A DNA stretch of 64,000 bases, taken from the NCBI GenBank assembly GCA_001725415.1, contig MEGH01000004.1, positions 161,964 to 225,963 on the forward strand. The letters run 5' to 3'. This document shows positions 7,145-63,025 of the stretch, piece by piece. Each line of letters begins with the position of its first letter. Positions within the stretch are counted from its first letter, which is position 1. Source of the DNA: Pseudonocardia sp. SCN 73-27. GTDB lineage: Bacteria > Actinomycetota > Actinomycetes > Mycobacteriales > Pseudonocardiaceae. A model generated the notes under the pieces. The model was not told where the DNA came from and made no database searches. It saw only the letters and a list, made by a program, of their open reading frames with translations. Position numbers and translations under genes: made by a program.

Positions 7145-7740
7145 GCACCGAACAGCCTGTGAGCGGTAATGGTCGCCATAGCGACCATTACCGCTCACGA
7201 GGCCCGATCGCCGAGCCGATGCGCGGCGCGGCCGCGGAGTCGATGCGCGGCGCGGCCGCGGAGCCGATGCGCGGCGCGGCCGCGGACGGCATCGCGCGGA
7301 TGCACCACGTCGGCATCCAGGTCTCCGACCTCGACCGCTCGCTCGCGTTCTACGAGGGACTGCTCGGGTTCGAGGTGATCACCCGGCAGGTCCGCGGCGA
7401 GGCCTACGCCGGCGAGGTCGTCGGCTATCCCGGTGTCGAGCTGCACCTCGCGCACCTGCGGCCGCCGAACTCGTCGGTCGTCATCGAGCTGACCGAGTAC
7501 CGCGGCGTCGCGCGCACCCCCGTCGACACCTCGACGGCCAACCCCGGTACCGCCCACACCTGCTACGTCGTCGACGACGTCGAGGCCGTCCACGCAGCGC
7601 TGATGGCAGCGGGCGTCCGGCCGGTGTCGCGCACGATCGTGTCCCCGGAGATCGGGGTCGCCAAGGGTGGCAAGGTCGTCTACGTCCAGGACCCCGACGG
7701 CGTGCGCGTCGAGCTGCTGCAACTACCACCGACGATCTGA
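7141..7740 (+). CDS. VOC (glyoxalase/dioxygenase fold) protein with repeat-derived N-terminal extension
   Basis: The 199-codon frame starts with ATG overlapping the previous stop. Residues ~7-19 are encoded by a 40-base palindrome and residues ~25-48 by three 24-base tandem repeats (units like EPMRGAAA). The conserved VOC domain begins only near residue 53 (MHHVGIQVSDLDRSLAFYEGLLGFEV) and has the typical C-terminal VQDPDGVRVELLQ; His at the start of the first module and Glu near the end fit metal ligands. VOC proteins include epimerases, isomerases and extradiol dioxygenases. An ATG at 7300 (MHHVG) would bypass the extension but has no clear ribosome site, so the true start is uncertain. Confidence 0.8.
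   Translation: MSTEQPVSGNGRHSDHYRSRGPIAEPMRGAAAESMRGAAAEPMRGAAADGIARMHHVGIQVSDLDRSLAFYEGLLGFEVITRQVRGEAYAGEVVGYPGVELHLAHLRPPNSSVVIELTEYRGVARTPVDTSTANPGTAHTCYVVDDVEAVHAALMAAGVRPVSRTIVSPEIGVAKGGKVVYVQDPDGVRVELLQLPPTI
7159..7198. repeat. Dispersed palindrome, copy 1 (GTGAGCGG type)
   Basis: Perfect 18-base arms around CATA: left arm GTGAGCGGTAATGGTCGC with its exact complement. Same family as 48793 and 62986. Lies 14 bases after the SDR stop and inside the VOC reading frame, where the left arm reads VSGNGR. No T-run follows. Could fold as a very stable RNA or single-strand DNA hairpin. Confidence 0.9.
7213..7284. repeat. Three tandem 24-base repeats
   Basis: Units 7213-7236, 7237-7260 and 7261-7284. 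Units 1 and 3 are identical, unit 2 differs by one base (Pro to Ser codon). 24 is a multiple of three, so copy number change keeps the VOC frame. Directly downstream of palindrome copy 1. Confidence 0.92.
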
Positions 7741-7757
7741 CCGACGGGAGGCACGCC

Positions 7758-7946
7758 GTGCGTGTCGACATCGATCTCGCCGCCTGTGCTGGCCACGGGC
7801 AGTGCGCCGCAACGTCTCCGGACGTCTACCACCTCGACGACGACGGGTTCGTCCTCGCCGACGTCACCGTTGCCGACGGGGCGGAGGACGACGCACGCGA
7901 AGGCGCTTCTGCCTGCCCGGAGAACGCGATCACCGTGCGGGACTGA
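7758..7946 (+). CDS. Small ferredoxin (3Fe-4S type), P450 partner
   Basis: 62 residues. Cys pattern CAGHGQC ... ACPENA, i.e. C-x5-C and a later C-P, as in single-cluster [3Fe-4S] ferredoxins that feed actinobacterial P450s (His replacing the fourth Cys region). GTG start with GGGAGG upstream. Downstream of two P450 genes and therefore the likely electron donor to one or both; no ferredoxin reductase is nearby. Confidence 0.93.
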   Translation: MRVDIDLAACAGHGQCAATSPDVYHLDDDGFVLADVTVADGAEDDAREGASACPENAITVRD

Positions 7947-7957
7947 GTCGGGAGCGG

Positions 7958-7987
7958 TTGACCCGGATCAGAATCCAGGGTCATAGT
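7958..7987 (+). promoter_or_regulatory. Probable promoter overlapping shared motif copy C
   Basis: TTGACC (7958-7963), 18-base spacer, CATAGT (7982-7987) resembles a -35/-10 pair before the KstD-like gene. The -10 region is part of a 15-base sequence (7973-7987, ATCCAGGGTCATAGT) repeated exactly at 3751-3765. A regulator binding here would block the polymerase site; this is inference. Confidence 0.5.
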
Positions 7988-8035
7988 AGTCAGTATCTTC
8001 ACCACGAATCGTCGGTCACGAGGAGGTGCGGGCTC

Positions 8036-10154: not shown

Positions 10155-10159
10155 GCGCC

Positions 10160-12100
10160 GTGCCCTTCCCACACCTGACCGCGCCGCTCGACGCCGGCCG
10201 GCTGCACCTGAAGAACCGCACCGTGTTCCCCGGCCACCAGACGCTGATGTCGCACGACGGCGTCGTCGGGGACACGATGTACCGCTACTACCTCGAGCGG
10301 GCCAAGGGCGGCGTCGGGGCGGTCGTCGTCGAGGGCGCGGCGGTGCACCCGTCGGCACCGAAGTTCCCGAACTACCTCTACGCCTACGACGAGGCGATCG
10401 TCCCCTCCCTCGACCGGCTCGCCGACGGCCTCCACGAGCATGACTGCAGAGCGATCGTGCAGCTCGCCCACAGCGGCTCGCGGATGCCGTCTCTCGACTC
10501 GCAACGCCCGCTGTGGGCGCCGTCGGACGTGCGATCGGCGATCTCGCCGGAGTTCCCGCATGCCATGACCGAGGCGGAGATCGCCGAGCTGCTCGACGGC
10601 TACCTCCTCGCCGCTCGCAACGTCGGCCGCTCGGGTGCCGACGGTGTGGAGTTCCACTCGGCGCACGAGTACCTGCCCGGACAGTTCCTGTCGCCGGTGA
10701 ACAACCTGCGCACCGACCGCTGGGGCGGCTCCCTCGACAACCGGATGCGGTTCCTCCTCGAGGGCCTCGCCCGGGTGCGCGAGGGGCTGGGCGACGACAA
10801 GGTCCTCGGCGTCCGCATCAACGGCAGCGACCTGCGCGACGACGGCATCCAGACCGACGAGTACGTCGAGATCGCGCGGCGGCTGGAGGCGAGCGGGCTC
10901 GTCGACTACATCTCGGTGAGCGCCGGGACGTCGGCGGCAAACCACCTCATCGTCCCGCCCATGGACGTCGAGCAGCGGGTGTTCACGCCCTATGCCGCGG
11001 CCATCAAGGCAGCGGTGACGTCGGTACCGGTGTTCGCCGTCGGCCGGCTCAAGCGGCCCGGGACCGCCGAGGCGCTGCTCGCGGCGGGGGAAGCCGACGT
11101 CGTCGCCGAGGCGCGGGCGTTCATCGCCGACCCCGAGTGGCTCAACAAGCTCGTGTCGGCCCCGGAGACGGTGCGCCCCTGCATCGCCTGCAACCAGGGC
11201 TGCTTCGGCAACCTCTACCTCAACCGGCGGCTGACCTGCTCGGTCAACCCGGCGGTCGGGCGCGAGGCCGAACTGGGCCTGGGCACCGTCCCGACGATCG
11301 CCGTCCGGCGACGCGTGGCCGTCGTCGGTGGTGGGCCGGGCGGGATGGAGGCGGCGATCACCGCCGCGTCCCGCGGGCACGACGTCACGCTGTTCGAGGC
11401 GACCGGCCGGCTCGGTGGGCAGGTCCTGCTCGCCACCGCCGTCCCGGCGCGCACCGAGCTGGGCGAGCTCGTCGACTTCCAGGTCGACGAACTCGAACGC
11501 CTCGGCGTCGACGTCCGGCTCGGCACCCGCGCCCACGCCGACGACCTCACCGGGTACGACGCCGTCGTCACCGCGACCGGGTCGACGCCGCGGCCGGCGG
11601 CATTCGGGGCGGCGCTCACCCCGGAGGAGGCGATCGGATCGACGGAGGACTGGTCGGGGCGCGACGTCGTGGTGATCGACGACGTCGGGCACTTCGCCGC
11701 GTACCTCCCGGCCGAGTCGATGGCCGACCGCGGGGCGCGCGTCGTCGTCGCCACGGCCAGGCTCACCGCGGGCACCGGGCTCGACTCGGCGACGATGATG
11801 ACGATGCACATGCGCCTGGCGCGTAAGGGCGTCGAGTTCCTCGTGCACGCCGCGCCGGTCTCGGCGTCCGCTGGGGTGGTGACGTTCCGCGACACGCTCT
11901 CGGGCGCGTCGCTGACCCGGCCCGCCGACGCGGTGGTCGCCGCCGTCGGCAACCGGGCAGCCGACGCCCTGGCCCACGAGCTGCGCGACCGCGCGGGATC
12001 CGACGAGGGACCCGACCTGCACCTGGTCGGCGACTGCGTCGCCCCGCGCACCATCACCGAGGCGATCCGCGAGGGCCGCCTGGTGGGCCGGGCTCTCTAG
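10160..12100 (+). CDS. OYE-type NADH:flavin oxidoreductase / 2,4-dienoyl-CoA reductase family (FMN, 4Fe-4S, FAD)
   Basis: About 646 residues. N-terminal TIM barrel binds FMN and contains GVEFHSAHEYLPGQFLSP with the catalytic-region His, and RTDRWGGSLDNR. A [4Fe-4S] motif follows (CIACNQGC then a Cys 11 residues on, TCSVNP), then an FAD/NAD domain (VAVVGGGPGGMEAA). Architecture matches FadH/trimethylamine dehydrogenase-type enzymes that reduce conjugated enones or dienoyl-CoAs. GTG at 10160 has AAGGGG well placed; GTG at 10151 (overlapping the cupin stop) is the alternative. Last gene of the rightward block; palindrome copy 2 follows at once. Confidence 0.9.
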   Translation: MPFPHLTAPLDAGRLHLKNRTVFPGHQTLMSHDGVVGDTMYRYYLERAKGGVGAVVVEGAAVHPSAPKFPNYLYAYDEAIVPSLDRLADGLHEHDCRAIVQLAHSGSRMPSLDSQRPLWAPSDVRSAISPEFPHAMTEAEIAELLDGYLLAARNVGRSGADGVEFHSAHEYLPGQFLSPVNNLRTDRWGGSLDNRMRFLLEGLARVREGLGDDKVLGVRINGSDLRDDGIQTDEYVEIARRLEASGLVDYISVSAGTSAANHLIVPPMDVEQRVFTPYAAAIKAAVTSVPVFAVGRLKRPGTAEALLAAGEADVVAEARAFIADPEWLNKLVSAPETVRPCIACNQGCFGNLYLNRRLTCSVNPAVGREAELGLGTVPTIAVRRRVAVVGGGPGGMEAAITAASRGHDVTLFEATGRLGGQVLLATAVPARTELGELVDFQVDELERLGVDVRLGTRAHADDLTGYDAVVTATGSTPRPAAFGAALTPEEAIGSTEDWSGRDVVVIDDVGHFAAYLPAESMADRGARVVVATARLTAGTGLDSATMMTMHMRLARKGVEFLVHAAPVSASAGVVTFRDTLSGASLTRPADAVVAAVGNRAADALAHELRDRAGSDEGPDLHLVGDCVAPRTITEAIREGRLVGRAL

Positions 12101-12146
12101 CTCGTGAGTGGCATTACTGGCCATGGCCAGTAATGCCACTCACGAG
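12101..12146. repeat. Dispersed palindrome, copy 2 (GTGAGTGG type)
   Basis: A perfect 46-base palindrome, arms CTCGTGAGTGGCATTACTGG plus CCA, centre CCATGG. It begins the base after the TAG of the OYE-type gene and ends 19 bases before the convergent dehydrogenase's stop. Placement fits a bidirectional terminator without T-run, but it belongs to the same sequence family as four other copies. Confidence 0.92.
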
Positions 12147-12165
12147 CGCCGGGACGGCGCGCAAG

Positions 12166-13167
12166 TCACACGGTGACGAAGACCTTGACGACGTCCGCGG
12201 CCCCGGTGACGGCGTGGTCGAAGGCGGCGGCGACGTCGTCCAGCGGGTAGGTGCGGCTCACGAAGCGCGCCGCCGACTCCTTCTGCGTGCCCACCACCGC
12301 GAGGGCCTCGGGGAACAGGCCCGCACGGGCGCCGACGATCGTCACGCCCTGGAACAGCACCTTCGGTACGGGGACGACGATGTCGTGAGCCGCGACGCCC
12401 ACGACGACGAGGCGGCCGCCGTTGCCGACCGCGCCCAACGCCGAGTCGAGGCCCGGGCGGGTGCCGGAGGCCTCGAAGGCGACGTCGGCGCCCTCGCCGG
12501 CCGACCAGTCCGCAACGGCGTCGGGCTCGGCGAGCGGGTCGACGACGCGGGTGGCGCCCAGCTCGGCGGCCAGTGCGCGGCGGGCGGGGACGGGGTCGCT
12601 GACGAGGATGTCGTGTCCGGCCGCGGCGGCGCAGACGGTGATCGCCAGGCCGATCGGGCCGGCGCCGACGATCGCGAGCCGCTCGTCGCCACGCAGCTCT
12701 GCGCGGGCGACGGCCATCGCCGCGATGGAGAACGGCTCGACGAGCGCGGCCTCGGTCGGGGTCAGGTCGGGGGCGCCGAAGAGCTGGCCGACGGGCGCGA
12801 CGACCTGGTCGGCCAGCCCGCCCGGCAGGGCGACGCCGAGCGCGCGGAACGACGTGCAGGCAGGCCACGCGCCGCGGCTGCAGGGCCGGCACCTCCCACA
12901 GGGGATGGCGGGGTCGATGGTGACGGTGTCGCCGACCTGCAGCGGGCCGTCGTAGCCGCGGGGGAGCGCGGCGAGGGTGCCGCCGACCTCGTGGCCCTGC
13001 CGCAGCGGGAACCCGGTGTCGTGGCGTTCGCCGAGGTACATGTGCAGGTCGGTCCCGCAGAGCCCGACGGTGCCGACGTCGACGACGGCGTCACCGGGAC
13101 CCGGGTCGGGGTCGGCGACGGTCTCGACGCGGATGTCGCTGGGTCCGGTGGTGACGGCGGCGCGCAC
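12166..13167 (-). CDS. Zinc-dependent alcohol dehydrogenase (MDR superfamily)
   Basis: 333 residues. Catalytic zinc ligands in VGLCGTDLH and GHE, structural zinc cluster CGRCRPCSRGAWPAC, then Rossmann motif VGAGPIGLA. Resembles sorbitol/threonine dehydrogenase-type enzymes. GTG start with AGGAG upstream, 3 bases after the stop of the TIM-barrel gene. Third gene in a leftward operon. Confidence 0.9.
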   Translation of the reverse strand: MRAAVTTGPSDIRVETVADPDPGPGDAVVDVGTVGLCGTDLHMYLGERHDTGFPLRQGHEVGGTLAALPRGYDGPLQVGDTVTIDPAIPCGRCRPCSRGAWPACTSFRALGVALPGGLADQVVAPVGQLFGAPDLTPTEAALVEPFSIAAMAVARAELRGDERLAIVGAGPIGLAITVCAAAAGHDILVSDPVPARRALAAELGATRVVDPLAEPDAVADWSAGEGADVAFEASGTRPGLDSALGAVGNGGRLVVVGVAAHDIVVPVPKVLFQGVTIVGARAGLFPEALAVVGTQKESAARFVSRTYPLDDVAAAFDHAVTGAADVVKVFVTV

Positions 13168-48768: not shown

Positions 48769-48792
48769 TCGGTAAAGGGCTGGTCAGACGGC

Positions 48793-48832
48793 GTGAGCGG
48801 TAATGGTCGCGATAGCGACCATTACCGCTCAC
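48793..48832. repeat. Dispersed palindrome, copy 3 (GTGAGCGG type)
   Basis: Perfect 18-base arms identical to copy 1 (GTGAGCGGTAATGGTCGC), loop GATA instead of CATA. Between convergent topoisomerase and DJ-1 genes, 4 bases from the DJ-1 stop. Position fits a terminator. Confidence 0.92.
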
Positions 48833-48836
48833 AGGC

Positions 48837-49382
48837 TCATTTCGCCGCGAACTCCTGAACGATGCGCTCGCAGAAGGCGGGCAGGTCGTCGGGGTCGCGG
48901 CTGGTGGTGAGGCGGCCGTCGGTGACGACCTCCTCGTCGACGGCAGAGCCGCCGGCGTTGCGGATGTCGGTGCGCAGGCTCGGGAACGACGTCAGGGTCC
49001 GGCCCTTCACCAGGTCGGCCTCGACGAGCGTCCACGGCGCGTGGCAGATCGCGGCCACGGGCCGGTCGGCGGCGAAGGTGTCGCGCACGAAGGTCAGGAC
49101 GTTCTCGTCGAGACGGAGCCGGTCGGCGTTGACGGTCCCGCCCGGCATGATCACGGCGTCGTAGTCCGACGCCGAGACCTCGGAGACGACCCGGTCGACG
49201 GGGTGCTTGCCGGCAGGTTCGATGTCGCTGTTCATGGCCTGGATGTCGCCGTCGGCGAGCGAGACGAGCTCCGTCGTCGCCCCCGCCTGTTCGACGGCCT
49301 TGCGGGGCTCGACGAGCTCGACCTCCTCGACACCGTCGGTGGCGAGCACGGCGATGCGCAGTCCCTGGAGTTCTCCACTCAT
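48837..49382 (-). CDS. DJ-1/PfpI family protein
   Basis: 181 residues. LRIAVLATDGVEEVEL with the conserved Glu, VIMPGG, and nucleophile elbow AICHAPW (Cys-His). Long PfpI/YhbO-like form; these act as stress proteins, deglycase/chaperones or amidases. ATG start. Confidence 0.92.
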   Translation of the reverse strand: MSGELQGLRIAVLATDGVEEVELVEPRKAVEQAGATTELVSLADGDIQAMNSDIEPAGKHPVDRVVSEVSASDYDAVIMPGGTVNADRLRLDENVLTFVRDTFAADRPVAAICHAPWTLVEADLVKGRTLTSFPSLRTDIRNAGGSAVDEEVVTDGRLTTSRDPDDLPAFCERIVQEFAAK

Positions 49383-49419
49383 GGCTGCGGCGTTCCCGGA
49401 CCGGGCCGGGGCAAACGCC

Positions 49420-50598: not shown

Positions 50599-50703
50599 GG
50601 GCGCTCCCGGGTGTCTCGAAGCGGATGTCTTCGAGACCGACGGTACGTCGTCGCATCCCCGCTCCACCGTGCCGTCCGCCACACGACGACGCATGCTGGA
50701 CGG

Positions 50704-52809: not shown

Positions 52810-53980
52810 GAGCGCAGTCGCGGACGAAGGCCAGGCCGTCGATCCGCGGCAGGTGCGCCGGGTCGAGCGGGGCGTAGCCGAACCAGGGCGACACCCGCGC
52901 CGGGGCGGACGGGTCGAACGCGCGTGGGTCGGCCAGCACCCGTGGCGCGCCGAGCGCGGACAACCGGCCCTCGACGGTGTCGGCGGCGGGCGCGTCCACG
53001 TCGTGCGCGGGGATGGTGCCGACGGCGGTGTGCACGAACGCGTAGTCGTCGCCGAGCCGGGCGTCGACGATCGCGCCTGCGCTCCACCAGTGCACCGGGA
53101 CGCCGCCCATCCGCATCGAGCTCTCGTCGCGCTGCAGGTGCGCGTTGTGCGCGAAGACGAGGACCGGGCCGCGGTCGGCGGCCGCGAGCAGGTTCTGCGC
53201 CATCATCGCGTCGCGCACGCCGAGCAGCCGCGCGATCCGCGCGGGCGAGGTGTCGGCCATCCAGGAGTGGTAGCGCAGCAGCCCGACGGCGGTGCGCCCG
53301 TGCAGCACCGCCCGGTCCCACTCGTCGCGCGACGACACCGCCCGCAGGCCGGGGGACCACGCGTCGAGCAGATCGACGAGGTCGTCGGCGAGCAGCCGCA
53401 ACGCCTGCGCGTCCGAGGTCCGGCCCACCGAGCGCGTCGGGTGGTACATCGCGGCGGCTTCGGTCCAGCGGGCGTCGTCACCGACGAGGGAGTCGAGGTC
53501 GGTGGCGGTGCAGGGCAGCAGCGACGCGTCGAGGCGGGCGGCCAGGAACGTGTGCAGCGCCGTCAGGGTCGCGCGCGGGCTCGCCGCGGCGGTGATCTCC
53601 AGCGGCCCGTCGACCCCCGCGAACCGCACCTGCTCCGCGGCCGCACGGCCCGCGTTGTGGGCGCGCATCCACGCGACCAGGGCCCGGTTGCCGGGCTGGG
53701 TGCCCCATTCGTGGCTGAAGCCACGGGCCATGACCTCGTCGAGGTCGCCGGCGCCGGTCGTGACGTGGTCGTCGACGAGCAGGCCCGCGACGCAGTCGCT
53801 CTCGACGGCGATCGTGCGGTAACCCTCGTGTTCGACGAGGTCGCGGAACAGGTCGTTGCGCAGGGCGAGCAGCTCCTCCTCGCCGTGGGTGGGTTCGCCG
53901 AGGGCGAGGACGCAGGGCCGGCGGCCCAGCAGGCCGAGGACGGCCGCGGCATCGACGATGCTGCTGTGAGCGGTATTCAT
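52784..53980 (-). CDS. Erythromycin esterase-like protein
   Basis: 398 residues. ALGEPTHGEEE (conserved Glu/His), GYRTIAVESDC, GFSHEWGT, FAHNAHLQRDES near 270-285 match the EreA/TraB-like fold. Known members hydrolyse macrolide lactones, but most actinobacterial homologs are uncharacterised. ATG 53980 preferred; GTG 54004 in frame would overlap the operator. Divergent from a MerR-type regulator. Confidence 0.85.
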   Translation of the reverse strand: MNTAHSSIVDAAAVLGLLGRRPCVLALGEPTHGEEELLALRNDLFRDLVEHEGYRTIAVESDCVAGLLVDDHVTTGAGDLDEVMARGFSHEWGTQPGNRALVAWMRAHNAGRAAAEQVRFAGVDGPLEITAAASPRATLTALHTFLAARLDASLLPCTATDLDSLVGDDARWTEAAAMYHPTRSVGRTSDAQALRLLADDLVDLLDAWSPGLRAVSSRDEWDRAVLHGRTAVGLLRYHSWMADTSPARIARLLGVRDAMMAQNLLAAADRGPVLVFAHNAHLQRDESSMRMGGVPVHWWSAGAIVDARLGDDYAFVHTAVGTIPAHDVDAPAADTVEGRLSALGAPRVLADPRAFDPSAPARVSPWFGYAPLDPAHLPRIDGLAFVRDCALSSGTPAP

Positions 53981-53984
53981 TGCC

Positions 53985-54030
53985 TCAACGGTATCGTTGA
54001 ACACTCGGTTGAGACTTTCACACGATACCG
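53985..54030. promoter_or_regulatory. MerR-type operator region
   Basis: TCAACGGTATCGTTGA (53985-54000) is a perfect 16-base palindrome, then CGGTTGAG and an ACGATACCG that repeats CGGTATCGT in reverse. Repeats fit binding by the divergent tandem-HTH regulator. Confidence 0.6.
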
Positions 54031-54038
54031 GCGGGACA

Positions 54039-54749
54039 ATGCCAGAGAACCCTCAACGGAGGCTGCGCCCCGTCGATCTCGCGCGGGCGCACGGCCTCTC
54101 CACGCAGGCGGTCCGCAACCACGAGGCCGCAGGCATCCTCCCGCCCGCCACGCGCAGCCCGCACGGCTACCGCCACTACACACCGCGGCACGCGCAGGCA
54201 CTGGCCGCGTTCCTCGCGCTCGTCCCGGGCCACGGGCACGGCCCCGCCACGGCGATCATGCGGGCGGTCAACGACGGGTCCGTCGACACCGCGCTGCGGA
54301 TCGTCGACGACAGCCACGCCCGGCTCGTCGACGACCGGGCCGTCCTGCGGGCCGTCGAGACGGCCCTCGCCGACCTGGAGCCTCCAACGCCGTCCCCGTC
54401 GTTCGGCGGCGAGATGTATGTCGGACCACTGGCGCACCGCCTCGGGATCCGGCCGGCCACACTGCGGCGCTGGGAACGCGCCGGGGTCGTCGCCCCGCGC
54501 CGCGACCCGGCCACCGGCTACCGCGTCTACGACGCCGCCGACGTCCGCGACGCCCTCATGGTTGGGCAGCTGCGCCGCGGCGGGTACCGGCTGGAGCAGA
54601 TCGCACCGGTCGTCGCGCACGTCCGGGCGGCGGGCGGTGTCGAACCGCTCGAACCGGTGCTGCGCGACTGGCGGGCCCGCCTCGCCGCCCGCAGCCGCGC
54701 GATGCTGCGCGGCGCCGCCGCCCTCGACGCCTACCTCGCCGGGGACTGA
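54039..54749 (+). CDS. MerR-family regulator with two HTH domains (TioE-like)
   Basis: 236 residues. First HTH LRPVDLARAHGLSTQAVRNHEAAGILPP...GYRHYT (res ~8-50); second YVGPLAHRLGIRPATLRRWERAGVVAPRRD...GYRVYDAADV (res ~128-170), each with its own wing. Tandem MerR domains are unusual and recall the TioE family. ATG 54039; TTG 53997 is in frame. Likely controls the esterase-like gene. Confidence 0.85.
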   Translation: MPENPQRRLRPVDLARAHGLSTQAVRNHEAAGILPPATRSPHGYRHYTPRHAQALAAFLALVPGHGHGPATAIMRAVNDGSVDTALRIVDDSHARLVDDRAVLRAVETALADLEPPTPSPSFGGEMYVGPLAHRLGIRPATLRRWERAGVVAPRRDPATGYRVYDAADVRDALMVGQLRRGGYRLEQIAPVVAHVRAAGGVEPLEPVLRDWRARLAARSRAMLRGAAALDAYLAGD

Positions 54750-54776
54750 CGAGGTCGGGCCGGGGTACGCGCGCGT

Positions 54777-55199
54777 GTGAGCACCGACCTCGACGCCCTG
54801 CGCGCCGCCGCCCGATGCACCGACTGCGAGCTGTCCGAAGACGCCACACAGGCCGTGTTCGGCGCGGGCCCGCCGTCGGCGTGGCTGATGCTGGTGGGGG
54901 AGCAGCCCGGTGACCGGGAGGACCTCGTCCGCGCCTGCCGGCACTGGTTCGACGACGAGCTCGACGTCGTCGGGCCGCAGGTCGTCGCGACGCTGGGGGC
55001 GACGGCGGCGAAGGCGCTGGTCGGGCCGGACGTCCGGATCACCGGCGAGCGCGGCCGGGCGCGCGAGTGGAACGGCAGGCAGCTGGTGCCGACGGTGCAC
55101 CCGTCGTCGATCCTGCGCGGCCCGCCGGACGCGCGGGAGTCGGCGCTGGACGCCCTCGCCACGGACCTGTCGGTGGCCGCGGCGTTGCGCCCCCGATGA
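54777..55199 (+). CDS. UdgX-like uracil-DNA glycosylase lacking its central region
   Basis: 140 residues against ~200 for the family. N-terminal CTDCELSEDATQAVFGAG...MLVGEQPGDREDL (iron-sulfur Cys pair and the water-activating motif) joins directly to ACRHWFDDELDVVGPQVVATLGATAAKAL and VPTVHPSSILRG. About 60 residues normally in between, containing GPAGRLL, the TNAVK strand and the KRRIH loop of UdgX, are absent without a frameshift. The protein probably cannot form the covalent uracil adduct. GTG start, 27 bases after the MerR gene. Confidence 0.85.
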   Translation: MSTDLDALRAAARCTDCELSEDATQAVFGAGPPSAWLMLVGEQPGDREDLVRACRHWFDDELDVVGPQVVATLGATAAKALVGPDVRITGERGRAREWNGRQLVPTVHPSSILRGPPDARESALDALATDLSVAAALRPR

Positions 55200-55275
55200 G
55201 GTGCCCGTCAGCCGCGGGATCGTCGGTCGACCCCGCGTACCCGGTGCGGCACAGCGTCATGTCAGCCCCGCCGGC

Positions 55276-57621
55276 CTACTTCGTGGCGCTGACGTTCCAC
55301 ACCTGCGTGCCCGCGGTGCAGCCCGTGGCCGGGATGGTGTGCTCCATGCGACCGTTCACCCCGGTCGCGGCCCACGCCGTGTTCTGCACCGACGCGTCCG
55401 TCGCCGACAGCGTCAGCATGAACGTCGCCGCGATGGGGCTGCCGTTGCAGTTGTAGCCGTACTGCTCGGCGATGGTACCGCCGACCGACCAGGCGCCGCT
55501 GCCGTCGGCACTCATCGTCAGGTTGCCGGCCCACTGCCCGTTGGGGGCGCGCGCCGTGCAGGTCTTGCGGTTGCAGTCGCTGATGATCACCGAGATCTCG
55601 AGGTTCGTCGACTTCGCGCAGTCGGACAGGTTGCAGTTGGCCTGCTGCCCCTTGAGGACGTAGGCGCCCTCGAGGGAGGCGTTGGCGGGCACGGCCTCGA
55701 AGTCGTCGCCACCGGTGGAGCCGGCGGGCCGGCGCAGGTTCGCGTTGGACAGGTCGATGAGGCCGAGCTCCTTGACCGCCTCGCCGGCTCCGACGACGGC
55801 GAGCGTCCGGTCCTTGTCGTAGCCGGGCCACGGGGCGCCGTCGGTCGACGCGGACGGGTCGGTGCTGCCCGGCGCGGTGAGCGGGTTGCCCGACGCGCAG
55901 CGCACCCGCGGGATGCCGTAGGAGTCGACGAGGACGGCGGTGCCCGCCTGCAGCACGGCCGGTGCCTGCTCGGCCTTCCCGTCGGTCCGGCCGTGCTCGG
56001 TGACGCGGGTGTCGGCGGCGAGCAGCACCGGGGTCAGCTCACGCAGGTAGGGGGTGATGTCGCCACTGGACAGGACGGTCGGGGTGCGGCTCCAGCGCAG
56101 GCCCGGGTCGGTGCGCAGCGCGGTCACCCAGGCGCCCGCGATGTCGGCGTGCCCGGACAGGAACGTCGACAGCCCGTCACGGTCGCAGGACGCGCTGCCC
56201 TTGACCCCGCGGTAGAGGCCGTCGGTGCTGCCGGGGACGGCGTCGCGGTTGGTCGCGTCCTTGGGCACCGACGACGCGTACACCGAGCCGGTCAGCCCGG
56301 AGGTGCGGGAGAAGTCGGTGGTGAACGCCCCGAGCACCGACGCGCCGATGGCGGGCTGGAACACGAGGTCGTTGCTGCTGCGCGACAGGAACCACCAGGT
56401 CCCGCCGCCGGCGAGCAGGGCGACGACCACGACGATCGCGGCGACGATCGGCCACTTCTTGCGCGGGCCCTTGCCCGTCGCGGACTGGGGCGGCGTGGTG
56501 CCCCACGGGTTGGTGGGGGCACCCGGCCCGGTGGCCGCGGCGGCGAACGCGGGCTGCGGCGTCCAGCTGTCGGGACCGGGTGGCGGGGACACCACCGGCG
56601 GCGTCGTGCCGTACGGCGGGGGTGCGGTCCCGTATGTGGGGGGAGCCGTGCCGTGCGCCGGCGGAGTCGTGCCGTGGGCCGGGGGAGTGGTCCCGTAGGA
56701 GGGGGGAACCGTCCCGCCGAAACCGTCGGGGGAGCCGATCAGCGTCGGCGCGGGAGGCGGACCGGGGGCGGCGACGGGACGGCCCGATTGCAGCGCACGT
56801 GCCTCGGCGACGGCATCGGCCATCGACTGCGGCCGCTGCGTCGGGTCGAGCGCGGCCATCCGCACCAGCAGCGCCGTGAACTCCGGCGGCACGCCCGGCA
56901 CGATCGGCTGCGGCAGCCCACCGCGCAGGATGCGGGCGACCATCGGGCCGGGGCCCGCATCGCTGTCGTCGCGGAACGGGCCGCGCCCGCACAGCAGCTC
57001 CCACACCGTCGTCGCGAGGGAGTAGACGTCGGACAGGACCGTCGGCCGGACGTTGTCGAGCACCTCGGGCGCGACGTGGTCGAGGCTGTAGCCGCCCGCG
57101 ACCGTCTGGGACTGGGCGCTCACGGTGCCGCGTGCGACGCCGAAGTCGGTCAGCGCCGGCGTCCCGTAGTCGGTGATCATGATGTTGGCCGGCTTGACGT
57201 CGCAGTGCAGCACGCCCTGCGCGTGCGCGGCGACGAGTGCCTCGCCGACGCGGATCAGCACGTCGAGGGCGTCGGCCGGGGGCATCGGGCCGTGCTGGCG
57301 CAGCGCGGCCGCGTAGGAGCCGCGGGCGCACAGCTGCAGCGCGAGCCACGGGTGGTTGCCGACGACGCCGGCGTCGTACAGCGCGACGATGTGGGGGTGC
57401 TGCGACAGCGCGGCCATGGCCTGGCGTTCGCGCTCGAACCGGCCGCGGGCGTCGGGATCGCGCAGGTCGACGTCGAGCAGCTTGAGCGCCACCGACCGCC
57501 CCGCGGACACCTGGGTGGCCTCCCAGACCACACTCGAGGCGCCCCGGCCGACGATCCGGATCGGGACGTACCCGGGCGGGACGGCGCCACCCGGACCGGA
57601 CCCGGCTCCCGTGCTGTTCAC
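55276..57621 (-). CDS. PknB-type membrane Ser/Thr protein kinase
   Basis: 781 residues. Kinase domain ~15-270: GRGASSVVWEA, VALKLLD, HCDVKPANIM (non-RD: Cys for Arg), DFGVA, APEV. Then a Pro-rich juxtamembrane with repeated PPxYGT/PPAHGT units (~295-370), TM helix IVAAIVVVVALLAGG near 395, and ~360 extracytoplasmic residues with paired Cys (CNLSDC, CNRKTC) but no PASTA repeats. GTG 57621 with GAGGGGGAG upstream. Ligand unknown. Confidence 0.92.
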   Translation of the reverse strand: MNSTGAGSGPGGAVPPGYVPIRIVGRGASSVVWEATQVSAGRSVALKLLDVDLRDPDARGRFERERQAMAALSQHPHIVALYDAGVVGNHPWLALQLCARGSYAAALRQHGPMPPADALDVLIRVGEALVAAHAQGVLHCDVKPANIMITDYGTPALTDFGVARGTVSAQSQTVAGGYSLDHVAPEVLDNVRPTVLSDVYSLATTVWELLCGRGPFRDDSDAGPGPMVARILRGGLPQPIVPGVPPEFTALLVRMAALDPTQRPQSMADAVAEARALQSGRPVAAPGPPPAPTLIGSPDGFGGTVPPSYGTTPPAHGTTPPAHGTAPPTYGTAPPPYGTTPPVVSPPPGPDSWTPQPAFAAAATGPGAPTNPWGTTPPQSATGKGPRKKWPIVAAIVVVVALLAGGGTWWFLSRSSNDLVFQPAIGASVLGAFTTDFSRTSGLTGSVYASSVPKDATNRDAVPGSTDGLYRGVKGSASCDRDGLSTFLSGHADIAGAWVTALRTDPGLRWSRTPTVLSSGDITPYLRELTPVLLAADTRVTEHGRTDGKAEQAPAVLQAGTAVLVDSYGIPRVRCASGNPLTAPGSTDPSASTDGAPWPGYDKDRTLAVVGAGEAVKELGLIDLSNANLRRPAGSTGGDDFEAVPANASLEGAYVLKGQQANCNLSDCAKSTNLEISVIISDCNRKTCTARAPNGQWAGNLTMSADGSGAWSVGGTIAEQYGYNCNGSPIAATFMLTLSATDASVQNTAWAATGVNGRMEHTIPATGCTAGTQVWNVSATK

Positions 57622-57808
57622 GCTGTGCTCCCCCTCGACAGCCCCGATACCGCGCGCGGAGGTGCCGTCGCCCTTGGCGTCGCCCGACCGCGGCCATCCG
57701 TTACGCGCAGTATTCCCAGGTGCCTCCGGACAGGCGTCCGCGGCCCTCGGGAGGCCGCGCACGTCCGAGATCTCCCGTGGGAGCCGCCCCCGATGACAGA
57801 CTGCGCGG

Positions 57809-58642
57809 ATGGCGAAGGACAAGGCGGGCGACGAGACGGCCGCGGGGGACAAGCCCGCCCGTGTTCCGAGGAAGGCCTACGAGGCCGAGCTGCTGCGGCT
57901 GCAGGGCGAGCTCGTGCAGATGCAGGAGTGGGTGCGCGACACCGGGGCGCGGATCGTCGTCGCCTTCGAGGGCCGCGACGCCGCGGGCAAGGGCGGCGCG
58001 ATCAAACGGGTCACCGAGCACCTCAACCCCCGCGTCGCACGGATCGTCGCGCTGCCCGCGCCGACGGAGCGCCAGCGCACGCAGTGGTACTTCCAGCGCT
58101 ACATCGAGCACCTGCCCGCGGCCGGGGAGATCGTGCTGCTCGACCGCAGCTGGTACAACCGCGCCGGCGTCGAACGCGTCATGGGCTTCTGCACGCCCGA
58201 GGAGTACCAGCGCTTCATGCGCCAGTGCCCGATCTTCGAGAACCTGCTCGTCGAGGACGGGATCCTGTTGCGCAAGTACTGGTTCTCGGTGAGCGACGAC
58301 GAGCAGGTGCGCCGCTTCTCCGAGCGCGCGGCCGACCCGCTCAAGCAGTGGAAGCTCTCGCCGATGGACCTGGAGTCGATCACCCGCTGGGACTCCTACT
58401 CCCAGGCCAAGGACGACATGCTCGTGCACACCGACACCGAGTCCTCGCCGTGGTGGGTCGTCGAGGCCGAGGACAAGCGGGCGGCGCGGCTCAACATGAT
58501 CCACCACCTGCTGACGTCGATCCCGTGGCAGCCCGTCCAGCGCCCGGCGCTGTCGCTGCCCGACAGGCCCGCCGGGTCCGGCTACGTCCGGCCGCCGCGG
58601 GAGATCCAGCGCAGCGTGCCCGACCACGCGGCCACCCTGTAG
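57809..58642 (+). CDS. Polyphosphate kinase 2 (PPK2) family protein
   Basis: 277 residues. VVAFEGRDAAGKGGAIKR (Walker A), LLDRSWYNRAGVERVMGFC (Walker B/lid), KYWFSVSDDEQ. Transfers phosphate between polyphosphate and nucleoside di-/triphosphates. ATG 57809, divergent from the kinase across 187 bases that probably hold both promoters. Confidence 0.94.
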   Translation: MAKDKAGDETAAGDKPARVPRKAYEAELLRLQGELVQMQEWVRDTGARIVVAFEGRDAAGKGGAIKRVTEHLNPRVARIVALPAPTERQRTQWYFQRYIEHLPAAGEIVLLDRSWYNRAGVERVMGFCTPEEYQRFMRQCPIFENLLVEDGILLRKYWFSVSDDEQVRRFSERAADPLKQWKLSPMDLESITRWDSYSQAKDDMLVHTDTESSPWWVVEAEDKRAARLNMIHHLLTSIPWQPVQRPALSLPDRPAGSGYVRPPREIQRSVPDHAATL

Positions 58643-58649
58643 GACGCTC

Positions 58650-59606
58650 CTAGCTCCAGATCGTCACGTACACGGGCGGGCGGAACCGCGCAGGGGCCAG
58701 TCCCTCACCCGGTGCCCGCAGCAGCTTCATCGCCTCCGGCGTGGACAGGAAGTGCCGCAGCGACGACGCGGCTGCCGAGCGCCGGTCCACCGGCAGCGTC
58801 GACACGTGCCAGACGACGTCGATGGGCGTGCCGGGGAGCTCGACCACGGTGAGCTCGCGGCGCCGGACGTGGTGCACCGCAAGATGTGCGATGCCGGGGG
58901 CGACGCCCGCGCCGCGGGCGGCGGCGTCCCAGGCTGCGGTCTGCGTCGGGAACACCGACAGGCTCGACTCGGGGATGCGCGCGGCGCGCAGCAGCCGGCC
59001 GACGTCGCTGTCCGGGTCGGTCGCCGACGTCTCGACCAGCCACGGCCAGCGCGCGGGCGGGCCGGTGAAACGGGCGTCGGGGGCGGCGAGCACGACGAGC
59101 CGCGCGCGGAAGATCGGCTCGCTCACCAGCCCCATCGAGCGCTCGCCGCCAAGGTGCGGGCCCAGCGCGACGTCGGCCAGGCGCTGGGAGACGAGCGCGC
59201 CCATCTCCGCGGTGGTCGCGACGCCGGAGCTGATCTCGATCGTCCCGGACGACCGCGCCCCGAACGTCTCGCCCAACGGACCGGCGACGAACTCGACGAC
59301 CGGGCTCGGCGCGACCAGCCGCAGCTGCTCGGGCGCGCCCTTGGCCGAGCGCACCGCCGACTCCGCCTCCGCGCCCAGCGCCACCATCTGTGCCGCGATC
59401 GCGAGCAGCCGGGTGCCGCCCGCCGTCATGGTCATGCCGTTCCCGCTGCGCACCAGCAGGGGATCGCCGAGGTACTTGCGCAGCGCCGCCAGGGCCTGGG
59501 AGACGGCGGGCTCGCTGACCGACAGCGCGTTCGCGGCCGCCTTGACCGACCCCAGGCGCGCCACGAGCACGAACGCGCTCAGCTGCGTCAGCGTCATGCC
59601 AGGCAT
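58650..59606 (-). CDS. LysR-family transcriptional regulator
   Basis: 318 residues. N-terminal HTH FVLVARLGSVKAAANALSVSEPAVSQALAALRKYLGDPLLVR, then a substrate-binding domain. Start M1 or M4. Convergent with PPK2 (8-base gap). Target not evident. Confidence 0.92.
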   Translation of the reverse strand: MPGMTLTQLSAFVLVARLGSVKAAANALSVSEPAVSQALAALRKYLGDPLLVRSGNGMTMTAGGTRLLAIAAQMVALGAEAESAVRSAKGAPEQLRLVAPSPVVEFVAGPLGETFGARSSGTIEISSGVATTAEMGALVSQRLADVALGPHLGGERSMGLVSEPIFRARLVVLAAPDARFTGPPARWPWLVETSATDPDSDVGRLLRAARIPESSLSVFPTQTAAWDAAARGAGVAPGIAHLAVHHVRRRELTVVELPGTPIDVVWHVSTLPVDRRSAAASSLRHFLSTPEAMKLLRAPGEGLAPARFRPPVYVTIWS

Positions 59607-59640
59607 TGTCGACCATCGACGCCCATGATCGGGGCACCGT

Positions 59641-59654
59641 TAAGCGATCACTTA
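59641..59654. promoter_or_regulatory. Palindrome TAAGCGatCaCTTA
   Basis: One-mismatch version of TAAGCGnnCGCTTA, overlapping the stop codon of the histidine-kinase fragment and 34 bases upstream of the LysR start. Confidence 0.5.
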
Positions 59655-59812
59655 GGACGCGTCACCGCTGCGTGTGGTGGGTCGTGCGGCACCGTCAGGA
59701 CGGGCAGCCGGGCCTCGACGACGGTGCCCCCGCCCGCACGCGGCCCCACCCGCAGCCGGCCGCCTGCTGCCTCGCCCCGGTCGGCGAGTCCCCGCCGGCG
59801 TCGCCGCTGCGA
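59648..59812 (-). pseudogene. Histidine-kinase C-terminal remnant (HATPase tail)
   Basis: On the - strand the frame reads RRGLADRGEAAGGRLRVGP then GGGTVVEARLPV and ends TGA at 59648. This matches the last part (G2 box) of NarL-type sensor-kinase ATPase domains. No start, no upstream domains, no response regulator. The fragment is bounded by the palindromes at 59641 and 59815. Probably a relic of a lost two-component system. Confidence 0.7.
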
Positions 59813-59814
59813 TT

Positions 59815-59828
59815 TAAGCGAACGCTTA
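59815..59828. promoter_or_regulatory. Palindrome TAAGCGaaCGCTTA
   Basis: Perfect 14-base palindrome at the other edge of the kinase remnant; similar to the copy at 59641. Resembles a TetR/other repressor site, but no cognate regulator gene is seen. Confidence 0.5.
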
Positions 59829-59946
59829 GCCGAGGGTGTCGTCCCGGGGGCTCTGCGGCGAGACTCGGCTCAACGGCGGACGGTGCTGCGGTGGCGCGGC
59901 AGACGGGCCACCATGGACGCTGAACCGCCGCGGGAGGAGGACGACG

Positions 59947-60261
59947 ATGTCCGAGCGCGAGACCGGCACCGACCCCGACAGCGATGCTGCCCTCACCGTG
60001 CTGCGCGGAATCTGGTCGGCCACCGGCCAGACCAGCGCCGAGCTGGAAGAACGCTTCGGCCGCCGCCCCGGCAAGGTCTGCAAGAACATGAAGAACATCG
60101 GCTTCGGCGGCATGCCCGGCGACCCGATCGACGGCGACACCAACACCCCCGTCGACGAGGACGTCCGCGCCGCATGGCGCCGGCGTCTGGAGCGCGACGG
60201 CAAGCTGCACCCGCGCGGGCGCAGCGTCGGCGAGACCCTCAACTCCCGTGAGTGGCGATAG
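59947..60261 (+). CDS. Small unknown protein
   Basis: 104 residues, ATG with GGGAGGAGG upstream. Acidic N-terminus, then RGIWSATGQTSAELEERFGRRPGKVCKNMKNIGFGGMPGDPIDGD. Two Lys-rich helices and a Gly-rich turn; single Cys. No family recognised. The last five codons and the stop (TAG) lie in palindrome copy 4. Lead gene before the MoxR/vWA pair. Confidence 0.75.
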   Translation: MSERETGTDPDSDAALTVLRGIWSATGQTSAELEERFGRRPGKVCKNMKNIGFGGMPGDPIDGDTNTPVDEDVRAAWRRRLERDGKLHPRGRSVGETLNSREWR

Positions 60262-60287
60262 TGGCCATGGCGGCCATTGCCACTCAC
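60248..60287. repeat. Dispersed palindrome, copy 4 (GTGAGTGG type)
   Basis: Arms GTGAGTGGC...GCCACTCAC with centre GGCCATGGCGGCC; several inner mismatches, so a less perfect member related to copy 2. Supplies the stop of the preceding gene and lies 30 bases before the next start. Confidence 0.85.
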
Positions 60288-60316
60288 GAGTCCCCCTGTT
60301 CCGAGGAGACCGTGCG

Positions 60317-61189
60317 TTGACCCGACCCGGCTCGGTTGCCGAGCTCACCGACGCCCTGCGCGCCACCGGTTACCTGGCCGACCGCGGCCTGGCCACCGCC
60401 GTCCACGTCGCGCTCGGGCTCGACCGGCCCGTCCTGCTCGAGGGCGAGGTCGGCGTCGGCAAGACGGAGCTGGCCAAGGCGCTCGCGGACGTGTTGGGGC
60501 GCAGGCTGATCCGGCTGCAGTGCCACGAGGGCATCGACGCCGCCCAGGCCCTCTACGAGTGGGACCACGCCCGTCAGCTCATGCACATCCGGGCGCTGCA
60601 GGAAACTGCGTCTGCAGACGGAGACGCCGTCGACGCCCTGTTCGGCCCCAAGTTCCTGCAGGAACGCCCCCTGCTCGCCGCCGTCCGGGCCGGTGCCGGG
60701 GCGGTGCTGCTCGTCGACGAGATCGACCGCGCCGACGACGAGTTCGAGGCCTTCCTGCTGGAGCTGCTGTCGGACTTCCAGGTGACGATCCCCGAGATCG
60801 GAACCGTTGCCGCCCAGGAGCCGCCGCTCGTGCTCCTCACGTCGAACCGCACCCGCGAGCTGCACGACGCCCTCAAGCGCCGCTGCCTCTACCACTGGAT
60901 CGGCTATCCGTCGGCGGCCCGCGAGGTCGCCATCGTCCGGTCACGCCGTCCCGAGGTGTCCGAGGCGCTCGCCGAGTCGGTCGTCGCGGCCGTGCACCGC
61001 CTGCGCGCCATGGATCTCGCCAAGCCGCCCGGCGTCGCCGAGACCATCGACTGGGCCCGCACCCTGGAGTTCCTCGGCGACGACCTCGACGCCGCCTCCG
61101 CCGACCTCACGCTCGGCTCGGTCGTGAAGGACCACGACGACGAGGAGCTCGTCCGCACGCGGCTCGACGAGCTGACCGCGCGTGGCTGA
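60317..61189 (+). CDS. MoxR-type AAA+ ATPase (CoxD-like)
   Basis: 290 residues. Walker A LEGEVGVGKTELAKAL, Walker B VLLVDEIDRADDEFEAFLLELL, sensor-1 LVLLTSNRTRELHDALKRRC, all typical of MoxR chaperone ATPases. TTG 60317 chosen for GAGGAGAC 7 bases upstream; an in-frame GTG at 60248 would read through palindrome 4. Overlaps the vWA gene by 8 bases, its usual partner. Confidence 0.92.
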   Translation: MTRPGSVAELTDALRATGYLADRGLATAVHVALGLDRPVLLEGEVGVGKTELAKALADVLGRRLIRLQCHEGIDAAQALYEWDHARQLMHIRALQETASADGDAVDALFGPKFLQERPLLAAVRAGAGAVLLVDEIDRADDEFEAFLLELLSDFQVTIPEIGTVAAQEPPLVLLTSNRTRELHDALKRRCLYHWIGYPSAAREVAIVRSRRPEVSEALAESVVAAVHRLRAMDLAKPPGVAETIDWARTLEFLGDDLDAASADLTLGSVVKDHDDEELVRTRLDELTARG

Positions 61190-62306
61190 CCTGGTCGGGC
61201 TGCTGGTCCGCTTCGCCCGCACCCTGCGCGCCGAGGGCGTCGCGATCGGGCCCGGCGACGTCCTCACCTACTGCGCGTCCGTCGCCACCCTCGACCCTTC
61301 CGACCTCGTCGACCTCTACTGGGGCGGGCGGATCGCGCTCGTCACCCGGCACGAGGACGTCGAGACCTACGACCGGGTCTTCGAGGACTTCTTCCTCGGC
61401 ACCGGTGTCGACGCCGGCTCCCTGCTGGAGCTGCTGCTGCGCGCCGAGCCCGACGCCGAGACGACGCTGGAGACCGTCGCGCCCGACCCCGGTGACGACG
61501 AACGTCCCGATGAAGAGACGACGCTCGGGCTCATGGCCTCCGATGTCGAGACCCTGTCGACCCGGGCGTTCGCCGAGTGCCGCGAGGAGGAGCTGGAGAC
61601 GTTGCGGCGCATCATGTCCCGCATCCGACTCCGCCCCCCGATGCGCCGCACCCGCCGCACCCGCGCCGCTCGCCGCGGCCGACGTCACGACCTGCGCGCC
61701 ACCGTCCGCCGCTCCCTGCGCACCCACGGCGAGCTCGTCGAACTGCGCTACCGGCGCCGCCGCGTCCGCCCCCGCCCGCTCGTGCTGATCCTCGACATCT
61801 CCGGTTCCATGGCCGACTACTCCCGCGCCCTGCTGCAGTTCGCGCACTCCGCCCAGCGCGGCGCCCGGTTCCGCGTCGAGGTGTTCTGCTTCGGCACCCG
61901 GCTCACCCATCTCACACCGTCGCTGCGCACCCGCAGTCCCGACGAGGCGCTCGCACGCGCCGCCGACCTCGTCGTCGACTGGGAAGGCGGGACCCGCATC
62001 GGGCAGGCGATCGACGAGTTCGTCCGACGCTTCGGCCGTCGCGGGATGGCGCGCGGCGGGATCGTCGTCGTGTGTTCCGACGGGCTCGACCGCGGCGACC
62101 CCGAGCTGCTGGAGTCGGCGATGCAGAAGCTCGCGCGGCTCTGCCACCGCGTGGTGTGGACCAACCCGCACGTCGTCGCCGGAGGCAGAGGGGTGCCGCG
62201 GACCGTCGGCATGCTCGTCGCCGAACCGTACGTCGACCTGCTGCTGTCGGGGCGCGACCTCGGCAGTCTCGACGAGCTGGCGGCGCTGCTGCCGGAGCTG
62301 GGATAG
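61182..62306 (+). CDS. vWA-domain protein, CoxE-like
   Basis: 374 residues. C-terminal von Willebrand A domain with MIDAS LILDISGSM, DWEGGTRIG and VCSDGLDRGD. Middle part is Arg-rich (RRTRRTRAARRG). CoxE family; with CoxD-like ATPase it matures metalloenzymes such as CO dehydrogenase, but no coxMSL or other Mo-hydroxylase gene is visible here. Confidence 0.92.
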   Translation: MADLVGLLVRFARTLRAEGVAIGPGDVLTYCASVATLDPSDLVDLYWGGRIALVTRHEDVETYDRVFEDFFLGTGVDAGSLLELLLRAEPDAETTLETVAPDPGDDERPDEETTLGLMASDVETLSTRAFAECREEELETLRRIMSRIRLRPPMRRTRRTRAARRGRRHDLRATVRRSLRTHGELVELRYRRRRVRPRPLVLILDISGSMADYSRALLQFAHSAQRGARFRVEVFCFGTRLTHLTPSLRTRSPDEALARAADLVVDWEGGTRIGQAIDEFVRRFGRRGMARGGIVVVCSDGLDRGDPELLESAMQKLARLCHRVVWTNPHVVAGGRGVPRTVGMLVAEPYVDLLLSGRDLGSLDELAALLPELG

Positions 62307-62315
62307 GAGCGGATC

Positions 62316-62603
62316 ATGCGGTGGAGTGTGGGACTCGAGGCCCAGGGGGACCGGCTGGTCACCCACGACGAGATCGTCGAGCTCGCCGACGCCGTCGCCC
62401 CGCACGGCGGCATCGCCTCCGGCATCGGCACCGACCGCTACGGGGCGCAGATCATCGTCGTCGCCTCGACCCACGACGAGGCCGTGGAACGTGGAACGGC
62501 GACCTTCCGCGCCGCCGCAGCCACCGCGGGCCTTCCTGAGTTCCCGATCGTCCGTGCGGAGGCGGTGAGCGAGGCCGACGACGACCTCGCCTGGGAGGCA
62601 TGA
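62316..62603 (+). CDS. Small unknown protein (ferredoxin-like fold possible)
   Basis: 95 residues. Alternating beta/alpha pattern: MRWSVGLEAQGDRLVTHDEIVELADAVAPHGG, GAQIIVVASTHDEAVERGTATFRAAA. Acidic C-terminus. ATG 62316 with AGGAGCGG upstream; stop overlaps the next ATG. Operon-linked to vWA. Function unknown. Confidence 0.75.
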   Translation: MRWSVGLEAQGDRLVTHDEIVELADAVAPHGGIASGIGTDRYGAQIIVVASTHDEAVERGTATFRAAAATAGLPEFPIVRAEAVSEADDDLAWEA

Positions 62604-62989
62604 TCCGCCTCGGCTCGTTGGCGGGCTACGCCTTCTCCGGTCCCCGGCTGCTCGCCGGCTGGGACCCGCCTGCCGAGCCGGGCGTCTACGCGATCCTCTA
62701 CAAGCCCGAACCCGAGCGGGAGCGCTACGCGGTCGTCTACGTCGGCCATGCCGACGACCTCACCAGCGAGGGCCTGCCCCTGCGCCACCCCCGCGCCCAC
62801 TGCTGGACCCAACGCGCCGGCGGGAAGTGGCGCCTGCACGTCGCGACCCTGTCGATCCCGGGCGGCACGAAGGGCCACCGCGAGATGGTCGCCGAGGAAC
62901 TGATCTCGATGTACACCCCCCACTGCAACGCCGAGCGCTACGAGGGCGCGTGGCGGGAGGAATGGATCGGCACGGACAAGCCCCTGTGA
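62600..62989 (+). CDS. GIY-YIG-like domain protein
   Basis: 129 residues. PGVYAILYKPEPERERYAVVYVGHADDL fits the GIY...YIG-like strands (VYVGHADDL), EMVAEELISMYTPHCN the conserved Glu and Asn region. Lacks a clear catalytic Arg, so nuclease activity is doubtful. ATG overlaps the preceding stop. Its TGA is inside palindrome copy 5. Confidence 0.65.
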   Translation: MIRLGSLAGYAFSGPRLLAGWDPPAEPGVYAILYKPEPERERYAVVYVGHADDLTSEGLPLRHPRAHCWTQRAGGKWRLHVATLSIPGGTKGHREMVAEELISMYTPHCNAERYEGAWREEWIGTDKPL

Positions 62990-63025
62990 GCGGTAATAGT
63001 CGCTATCGCGACTATTACCGCTCAC
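62986..63025. repeat. Dispersed palindrome, copy 5 (GTGAGCGG type)
   Basis: Perfect 18-base arms GTGAGCGGTAATAGTCGC, loop TATC. Compared with copies 1 and 3 a G is A in the left arm and the pairing C is T in the right arm, a compensatory change. Contains the stop codon of the GIY-YIG-like gene. Confidence 0.92.

Follow-up and report, generated by a model that had tools for sequence, protein, structure and literature searches.

The stretch analyzed comprises 64,000 nucleotides (nt) of contig MEGH01000004.1 from Pseudonocardia sp. SCN 73-27 (positions 161,964 to 225,963, forward strand; hereafter the window), and the subject of the analysis is a family of short palindromes located at gene ends, five of which lie in the window. 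The unit is 40 nt long, with complementary 18-bp arms around a 4-nt centre; the first arm reads GTGAGYGG followed by ten free bases. Across genomes these palindromes show paired arm changes and polarity with transcription, occupy shared sites, and carry stem types that differ by species at the same place. Four of the five window copies are perfect and the fourth has 4 mismatched arm pairs. RNA folds were predicted for 48-nt stretches around each element and ranged from -30.2 to -44.0 kcal/mol.

7159-7198, plus strand: Element 1, perfect 40-nt palindrome (GTGAGCGGTAATGGTCGC-CATA-); RNA fold of 7155-7202, -38.5 kcal/mol
12104-12143, no strand assigned: Element 2, perfect palindrome extending to 48 nt (12100-12147); fold -44.0 kcal/mol on both strands
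48793-48832, no strand assigned: Element 3, perfect palindrome; fold -37.4 kcal/mol
60248-60287, plus strand: Element 4, degenerate copy with 4 arm mismatches; fold -30.2 kcal/mol
62986-63025, plus strand: Element 5, perfect palindrome; fold -34.9 kcal/mol

Gene ends were taken from our own codon-usage gene caller and not from annotation. Element 1 starts 14 nt past the stop of a plus-strand SDR-like gene (6350-7144), with the next gene on that strand at 7219. Element 2 is flanked by convergent genes (10160-12100, plus; 12166-13167, minus), beginning 3 nt after the plus-strand end and leaving 22 nt to the minus-strand end. Element 3 also lies between convergent genes, starting 24 nt past a topoisomerase IB-like gene (47659-48768, plus) and ending 4 nt from a DJ-1/PfpI-like gene (48837-49382, minus). 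Element 4 overlaps by 14 nt the end of the plus-strand gene upstream of an AAA ATPase-like gene (60317-61189). Element 5 overlaps the end of a plus-strand gene (62600-62989) by 4 nt, so that the TGA in GTGAG is the stop codon, and bears the polarity marks CCCT before and GACC after. A preliminary description, made from the letters of the window, had reported five palindromes at these places, all at gene ends and in two sub-types, and each of these points was borne out. The size given there was 40-46 bases; the unit is 40 nt, and copy 2 is perfect over 48 nt.

Copy number, distribution and placement

The genome under study (G000; 6.95 Mb, 99 contigs) was searched with GTGAGYGGN{20,28}CCRCTCAC, which returned 172 copies against 0 for a reversed-pattern control; 168 of the 172 were exactly 40 nt (24 bases between the ends). 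Since only the outer 8 bp are specified by the pattern, inner-arm pairing was observed independently of the search, whereas the sameness of the outer 8 bp across genera follows from the search itself. Contig C4 (287 kb) contained 19 palindromes with 18-bp arms, a 4-nt loop and at most 3 mismatches, not all of them of the family, compared with 1 in a single shuffle.

Among Pseudonocardiaceae, the pattern was present in 121 of 249 genomes and 30 of 46 genera, at 0 to 367 copies each. Ten or more copies were found in 45 of these genomes, and many had one to three, which are partly chance-like. Within the genus Pseudonocardia, 45 of 62 genomes matched, with copy number ranging from 0 to 314. Two of 395 other actinobacterial genomes had one match each, neither palindromic. 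The preliminary description had proposed searching the genome and the family, and had named a chance-level count as evidence against a real family; the count in G000 is not of that kind, and the family search extended the range to the genomes just given. A scan of named records returned at least 116 stretches, and Pseudonocardia, Amycolatopsis, Kibdelosporangium, Saccharopolyspora, Actinophytocola, Actinomycetospora, Qaidamihabitans and Lentzea were among the matches listed, as was Rhodococcus, also with palindromic copies. Five matches in unrelated bacteria or archaea (L090, L100, L131, L160, L178) had 5-8 arm mismatches and look like chance. A phage origin was rejected, since all 26 IMG/VR stretches with the 40-nt pattern had 4-10 arm mismatches. 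Rfam 15 gave 0 matches in the window at gathering score, and no description of these elements was found among the matches listed from a mainly open-access literature.

Copies studied in detail were part of each genome and not a random draw. For G000, 48 copies under a strict rule or 57 under a loose rule were taken from the 172 (contigs C3-C8); loose-rule sets from other genomes, with the pattern total in brackets, were G292 36 (314), G169 20 (74), G273 8 (58), G250 28 (259) and G253 25 (86). Rows were excluded if the copy had over 4 or 5 arm mismatches, lay less than 150 nt from a stretch end (100 nt in the Kibdelosporangium T-run count) or was a duplicate. Relatives were compared by a 19-kb DNA query. 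Ortholog tests were run without the unrelated hairpin C4:132227, and tallies also without the doubtful C8a:8372.

In G000, 33 of 48 copies lay -4 to +7 nt from a stop codon, compared with 7.4% of 64,660 random non-coding 40-mers. In 14 of the 48 the distance was exactly -4, and the TGA within GTGAG serves as the stop codon. Contexts were tandem for 26, convergent for 18, inside a gene for 2, divergent for 1 and other for 1; divergent gaps make up 32% of the intergenic bases of G000, yet hold only that single copy. Over seven sets (293 loose copies), 139 were tandem, 123 convergent, 14 inside, 13 other and 4 divergent.

Flanks of the window's own clade read CT before and GA after the element, with short flanks CCT/GA or TC/AG. 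Relative to the adjacent gene, flank polarity in tandem copies of four related genomes was the same in 35, opposite in 6 and ambiguous in 21 (orthologues counted separately), and in G000 alone the ratio was 14 to 3. Of the 14 tandem rows in Kibdelosporangium, 12 had the loop TCTA on the sense strand, or 11 when the 13 distinct sites are counted. In the same genus, a T-run of at least 4 followed the hairpin at 9 of 46 gene ends, with two sites in overlapping loci counted twice, against a background of 1.0%.

Pairing of flanks beyond the core had opposite signs in the two sets compared, z -3.2 in the own clade and z +11.9 in named loci, the latter partly a species mixture. In Amycolatopsis, pairing continues into the flanks in a way that differs by locus (z 4.3; z 4.2 at positions 4-8). 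Locus-specific flank pairing past the 40-nt core was also seen at L118, L120, L151 and L156 (Actinophytocola, Amycolatopsis, Kibdelosporangium), in single cases over 8-10 bp more. In the G176 loci L288-L317, inner mismatches beside the loop are frequent and some copies have an A-run ahead of the stem or a T-run behind it, which sets them apart from the perfect copies in the window. The surroundings of the element in one G176 locus are the same as in L127 of Kibdelosporangium philippinense.

Arm pairing and species-typical inner stems

A search of own-clade DNA for strong hairpins of any kind gave 100 family-like ones, of which 92 had the exact outer 8 bp at both ends and the other 8 varied in the outer stem, including paired changes such as GTGCGCGG/CCGCGCAC. 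A copy just beyond the window end (C4:226073) has its outer stem altered on both sides in this form. The inner 10 bp vary between species. The main types are CGATAGTCGC in G292 and CGATGGTCGC in G169, with TTATCGCGGT and TTTTCGCGGT in G253, TTAGCGGTGC and CTAGGGNCGC in G250, and TAATGACGGT in A. orientalis; main inner stems are common to G292 and P. sulfidoxydans loci.

Between G000 and G292 orthologues, 63 of 270 pair positions had changed, and 44 of these 63 had changed on both sides with pairing kept. For G000 and G169, 23 of 52 changed pair positions were two-sided. In G000, the two arms of a copy matched each other better than arms combined at random (z 10.7). The exchange of G-C for A-T with pairing kept, which the preliminary description had noticed in copy 5, is real, and covariation of the arms across copies, whose absence it had named as counting against the proposal, was found. 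Linkage within one arm, measured against column shuffles, was z 36.8 in G000, 11.9 in G250, 2.7 in G292 and 2.8 in G253, as expected of lines of copies.

DNA identity to G000 was mostly 90-93% for G292 and mostly 84-91% for G169 and G273, and gene order was common in the compared stretches. A syntenic interval was found for 16 (G292), 18 (G169) and 15 (G273) of 29 G000 copies tested, and the element was present in 15/16, 11/18 and 7/15 of these intervals, respectively. For the window copies, the site of Element 2 is occupied in G292; that of Element 3 is occupied in both G292 and G169, the G169 copy having a longer centre. Element 4 has orthologous copies in G292, G169 and G273; Element 5 has them in G292 and G169, with a remnant in G273. 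Viewed in reverse, 23 G292 copies (contig C3, 1-180 kb) were present in G000 in 12 cases, absent in 9 and without synteny in 2. The window gene 10160-12097, used as an ortholog probe in ten genomes of the genus, had one close ortholog, in G192, a genome without copies.

The 16 intervals without the element held another hairpin family (ACGGCMC...GKGCCGT) in 4 cases, remnants by a simple string test in 5 and nothing in 7. Remnants, for example a G273 site that retains both ends, indicate probable loss. No clear new insertion of the palindrome was observed. The second hairpin family is intergenic, with 28 copies in G169, 27 in G292, 11 in G273 and 3 in G000 under a strict pattern, and here too the inner stem is largely characteristic of the species (AGTCGCGC in G292, TTTCCCGC in G169).

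Inner stems at shared sites were compared with those of re-paired copies. For G000 and G292 (n = 15), inner distance was 2.87 for orthologues and 3.05 after re-pairing, and centre distance 1.33 and 1.52. Of four other pairs, G000-G169 (n = 11) came closest to a signal, at 2.64 and 2.89, with 7.2% of shuffles as low. In these small samples, orthology conferred no clear gain in similarity over re-pairing. A stem end of GGC/GGT on both arms was found in 22 of 52 sampled G000 copies and in 0/35, 0/19 and 0/8 from G292, G169 and G273, the relatives to which this absence applies; GGC stems also occur in distant species, e.g. G253. Ten G000 sites had a GGC/GGT stem on at least one arm together with a syntenic interval, and at 9 of them the TCG type was present in at least one relative and GGC in none; one of the nine (222211, Element 4) is a degenerate copy. 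To judge from three relatives, the TCG type is probably older than the GGC/GGT type.

Candidate functions and origins

On balance, the elements are probably gene-end RNA hairpins of a terminator-like kind that are maintained by pairing and homogenized in place. A role in RNA is favored because of the gene-end position, the polarity, the few hairpin exchanges and some T-runs in Kibdelosporangium. The 40 nt would be transcribed just after or with the stop codon and would form an 18-bp stem, which most likely would aid transcript ending or shield the 3' end, from both sides at convergent genes. The hairpin would accordingly terminate or protect RNA, and the GTGAGYGG outer stem is presumably the recognition part. 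The species-typical inner stem may derive from copies converting one another in place, and compensatory changes or template switching between the two arms could preserve the perfect pairing of each copy.

For Streptomyces, the cited sections of a Term-seq study (PMC12207403) report hairpins that are long, stable and poor in U, with 3-4 U among the next 10 nt and a median distance of 66-76 nt from the gene to the transcript end. The palindromes resemble high-GC actinobacterial intrinsic terminators, so far as these sections describe them, in gene-end position, hairpin stability and scarcity of U. They differ in having 1.2 T on average, in starting mostly at -4 to +7 nt, so that RNA ends would fall about 40-50 nt past the stop, and in sharing sequence among copies. 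Of the features of a canonical intrinsic terminator, the G+C-rich hairpin is present and the U-run is absent. In some Kibdelosporangium copies one hairpin is preceded by an A-run and followed by a T-run, as in bidirectional terminators, whereas the window clade has no such runs.

Several observations weigh against the terminator-like reading. Tandem copies have no T-run after the hairpin (mean 1.2 T per 10 nt, n = 94), a terminator scan of window positions 47000-64000 found none, and loop polarity is unclear in Amycolatopsis (16 to 11, one other). The next gene starts within 40 nt in 35 of 94 tandem copies, which is odd for a strong terminator; many copies therefore lie inside operon-like runs, and this speaks for protection, processing or partial termination over a full stop. 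A wobble test for an RNA stem in the sense strand (53 G-U, 37 A-C, 50 other mismatches) tended in the direction expected of RNA but was not significant (one-sided p 0.057). The exchange site C8b 18826 is not clean, as G000 itself has the other hairpin beside the element. The 20-nt flanks differed more than the arms between G000 and G292 (215/592, 36%, vs. 107/540, 20%); copy-and-replace is therefore not forced, there was time enough for ordinary change under selection, and a similar outcome could result from selection toward a shared partner. No enzyme was found, PF01797 alone having been searched for. The lineage-specific terminator put forward in the preliminary description fits best of its candidates by place, polarity, hairpin exchange and Kibdelosporangium T-runs; it is unproven, and the missing T-runs of the own clade and the tandem copies close to a next gene stand against it.

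Uniform copies could arise by conversion between copies, by mobility of another kind or through selection by a shared partner. Tentatively, a dedicated and undescribed activity, neither RAYT (REP-associated tyrosine transposase; REP, repetitive extragenic palindrome) nor plain insertion, may rewrite the hairpins in place, a new stem type replacing the old at existing sites in a homing- or gene-conversion-like process over 40 nt with GTGAGYGG as handle; we regard this as possible and somewhat doubtful. An earlier idea, that flanks adjoining the element are well kept between species, was dropped as flanks diverge more than arms, and no surgical replacement is claimed.

REP elements and REPINs are described in the cited parts of PMC3733652 and PMC8049555 as dispersed palindromes of 20-40 nt, mostly downstream of genes in tandem or convergent arrangement, that form per-genome populations. 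The 172 G000 copies share with them, on the features given there, the high number of a small palindrome mainly downstream of genes, the stop codon often supplied and the sequence populations. They differ in that the ends GTGAG/CTCAC are paired, with no unpaired GTAG or CGTC tag at one end, in the near-perfect symmetric 40-nt unit, in the species-typical inner stem within a common outer stem, in the lack of a PF01797 match in G000, and in their hosts (Pseudonocardiaceae and Rhodococcus, among the matches listed). CGTC-tagged REPs form a superfamily reported without a dedicated transposase, according to the same portion of PMC3733652; their tag is different and sits at one end, and their hosts differ. 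The element works like REPs in place and population behavior, and it is not classed as one because the tag test and the RAYT test fail.

A REP-like mobile palindrome, in which single-stranded hairpins are spread by a non-Y1-RAYT transposase and settle harmlessly beside stop codons, is unlikely. The range of 0 to 314 copies within one genus, the strongly linked subfamilies resembling amplification lineages, the polarity with transcription and the element-supplied TGA stops (14/48 at -4), as GTAG REPs often supply TAG (PMC3733652, cited part), agree with it. PF01797, however, is absent from G000 and occurs in 5 of 62 genomes of the genus, with 0, 1, 8, 11 and 66 element copies; GGC-type copies stand at sites occupied in a relative (9/10), and of the 16 empty intervals the 5 with remnants indicate probable loss and 7 show nothing. 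No target duplication was evident in ten alignments, which were no systematic test, and transposases beyond PF01797 were not searched. RAYT/IS200 as driver was rejected for G000 (0 PF01797 matches). What stands of the REP/RAYT-like suggestion in the preliminary description is a dispersed hairpin population; G000 has no PF01797 match, the elements have no GTAG/CGTC tag, and no clear new insertion was observed.

The site of a DNA- or RNA-binding protein that recognizes GTGAGYGG, with inner arms tracking a species-specific partner and copies co-changing by selection, is improbable. The outer 8 bp kept exactly in 92 of 100 own-clade hairpins, a search made without that requirement, and the rather uniform inner arms within G292 and G253 would suit such a candidate. 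Within G000 and G250, two or three dissimilar inner stems are found side by side, the centre is variable, and gene polarity is unexpected for a symmetric DNA site. For the outer 8 bp, the protein-binding site named in the preliminary description is possible, but a hairpin is favored by the inner 10 bp, which are free in sequence and change in pairs. Pure mutation bias, in which template switching at replication forks makes and keeps palindromes without function and they survive where genes are unbroken, is very improbable: template switching can create and repair stems (PMC8794818, in the part cited) and Amycolatopsis flanks pair past the core in a locus-specific way, but the fixed 40-nt length (168/172), the scarcity in divergent gaps, the polarity and the species-typical inner stems are left unexplained.

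If gene-end RNA hairpins homogenized in place are what the family represents, several genera of one family would mark many gene ends with one hairpin family evolving in concert at shared places. It would then become testable how high-GC actinobacterial transcripts end without U-runs, and by what means short repeats scattered over a genome are made uniform in the absence of a known transposase. Copy numbers from 0 to over 300 in one genus provide natural controls.

Other inverted repeats in the window

A degenerate copy of the second hairpin family lies at 32848-32894 (C4:194815), where two genes converge. At 31068-31138, a perfect 22-bp inverted repeat with a 27-nt spacer is placed between divergent genes (ends 31038 and 31165) and is operator-like.

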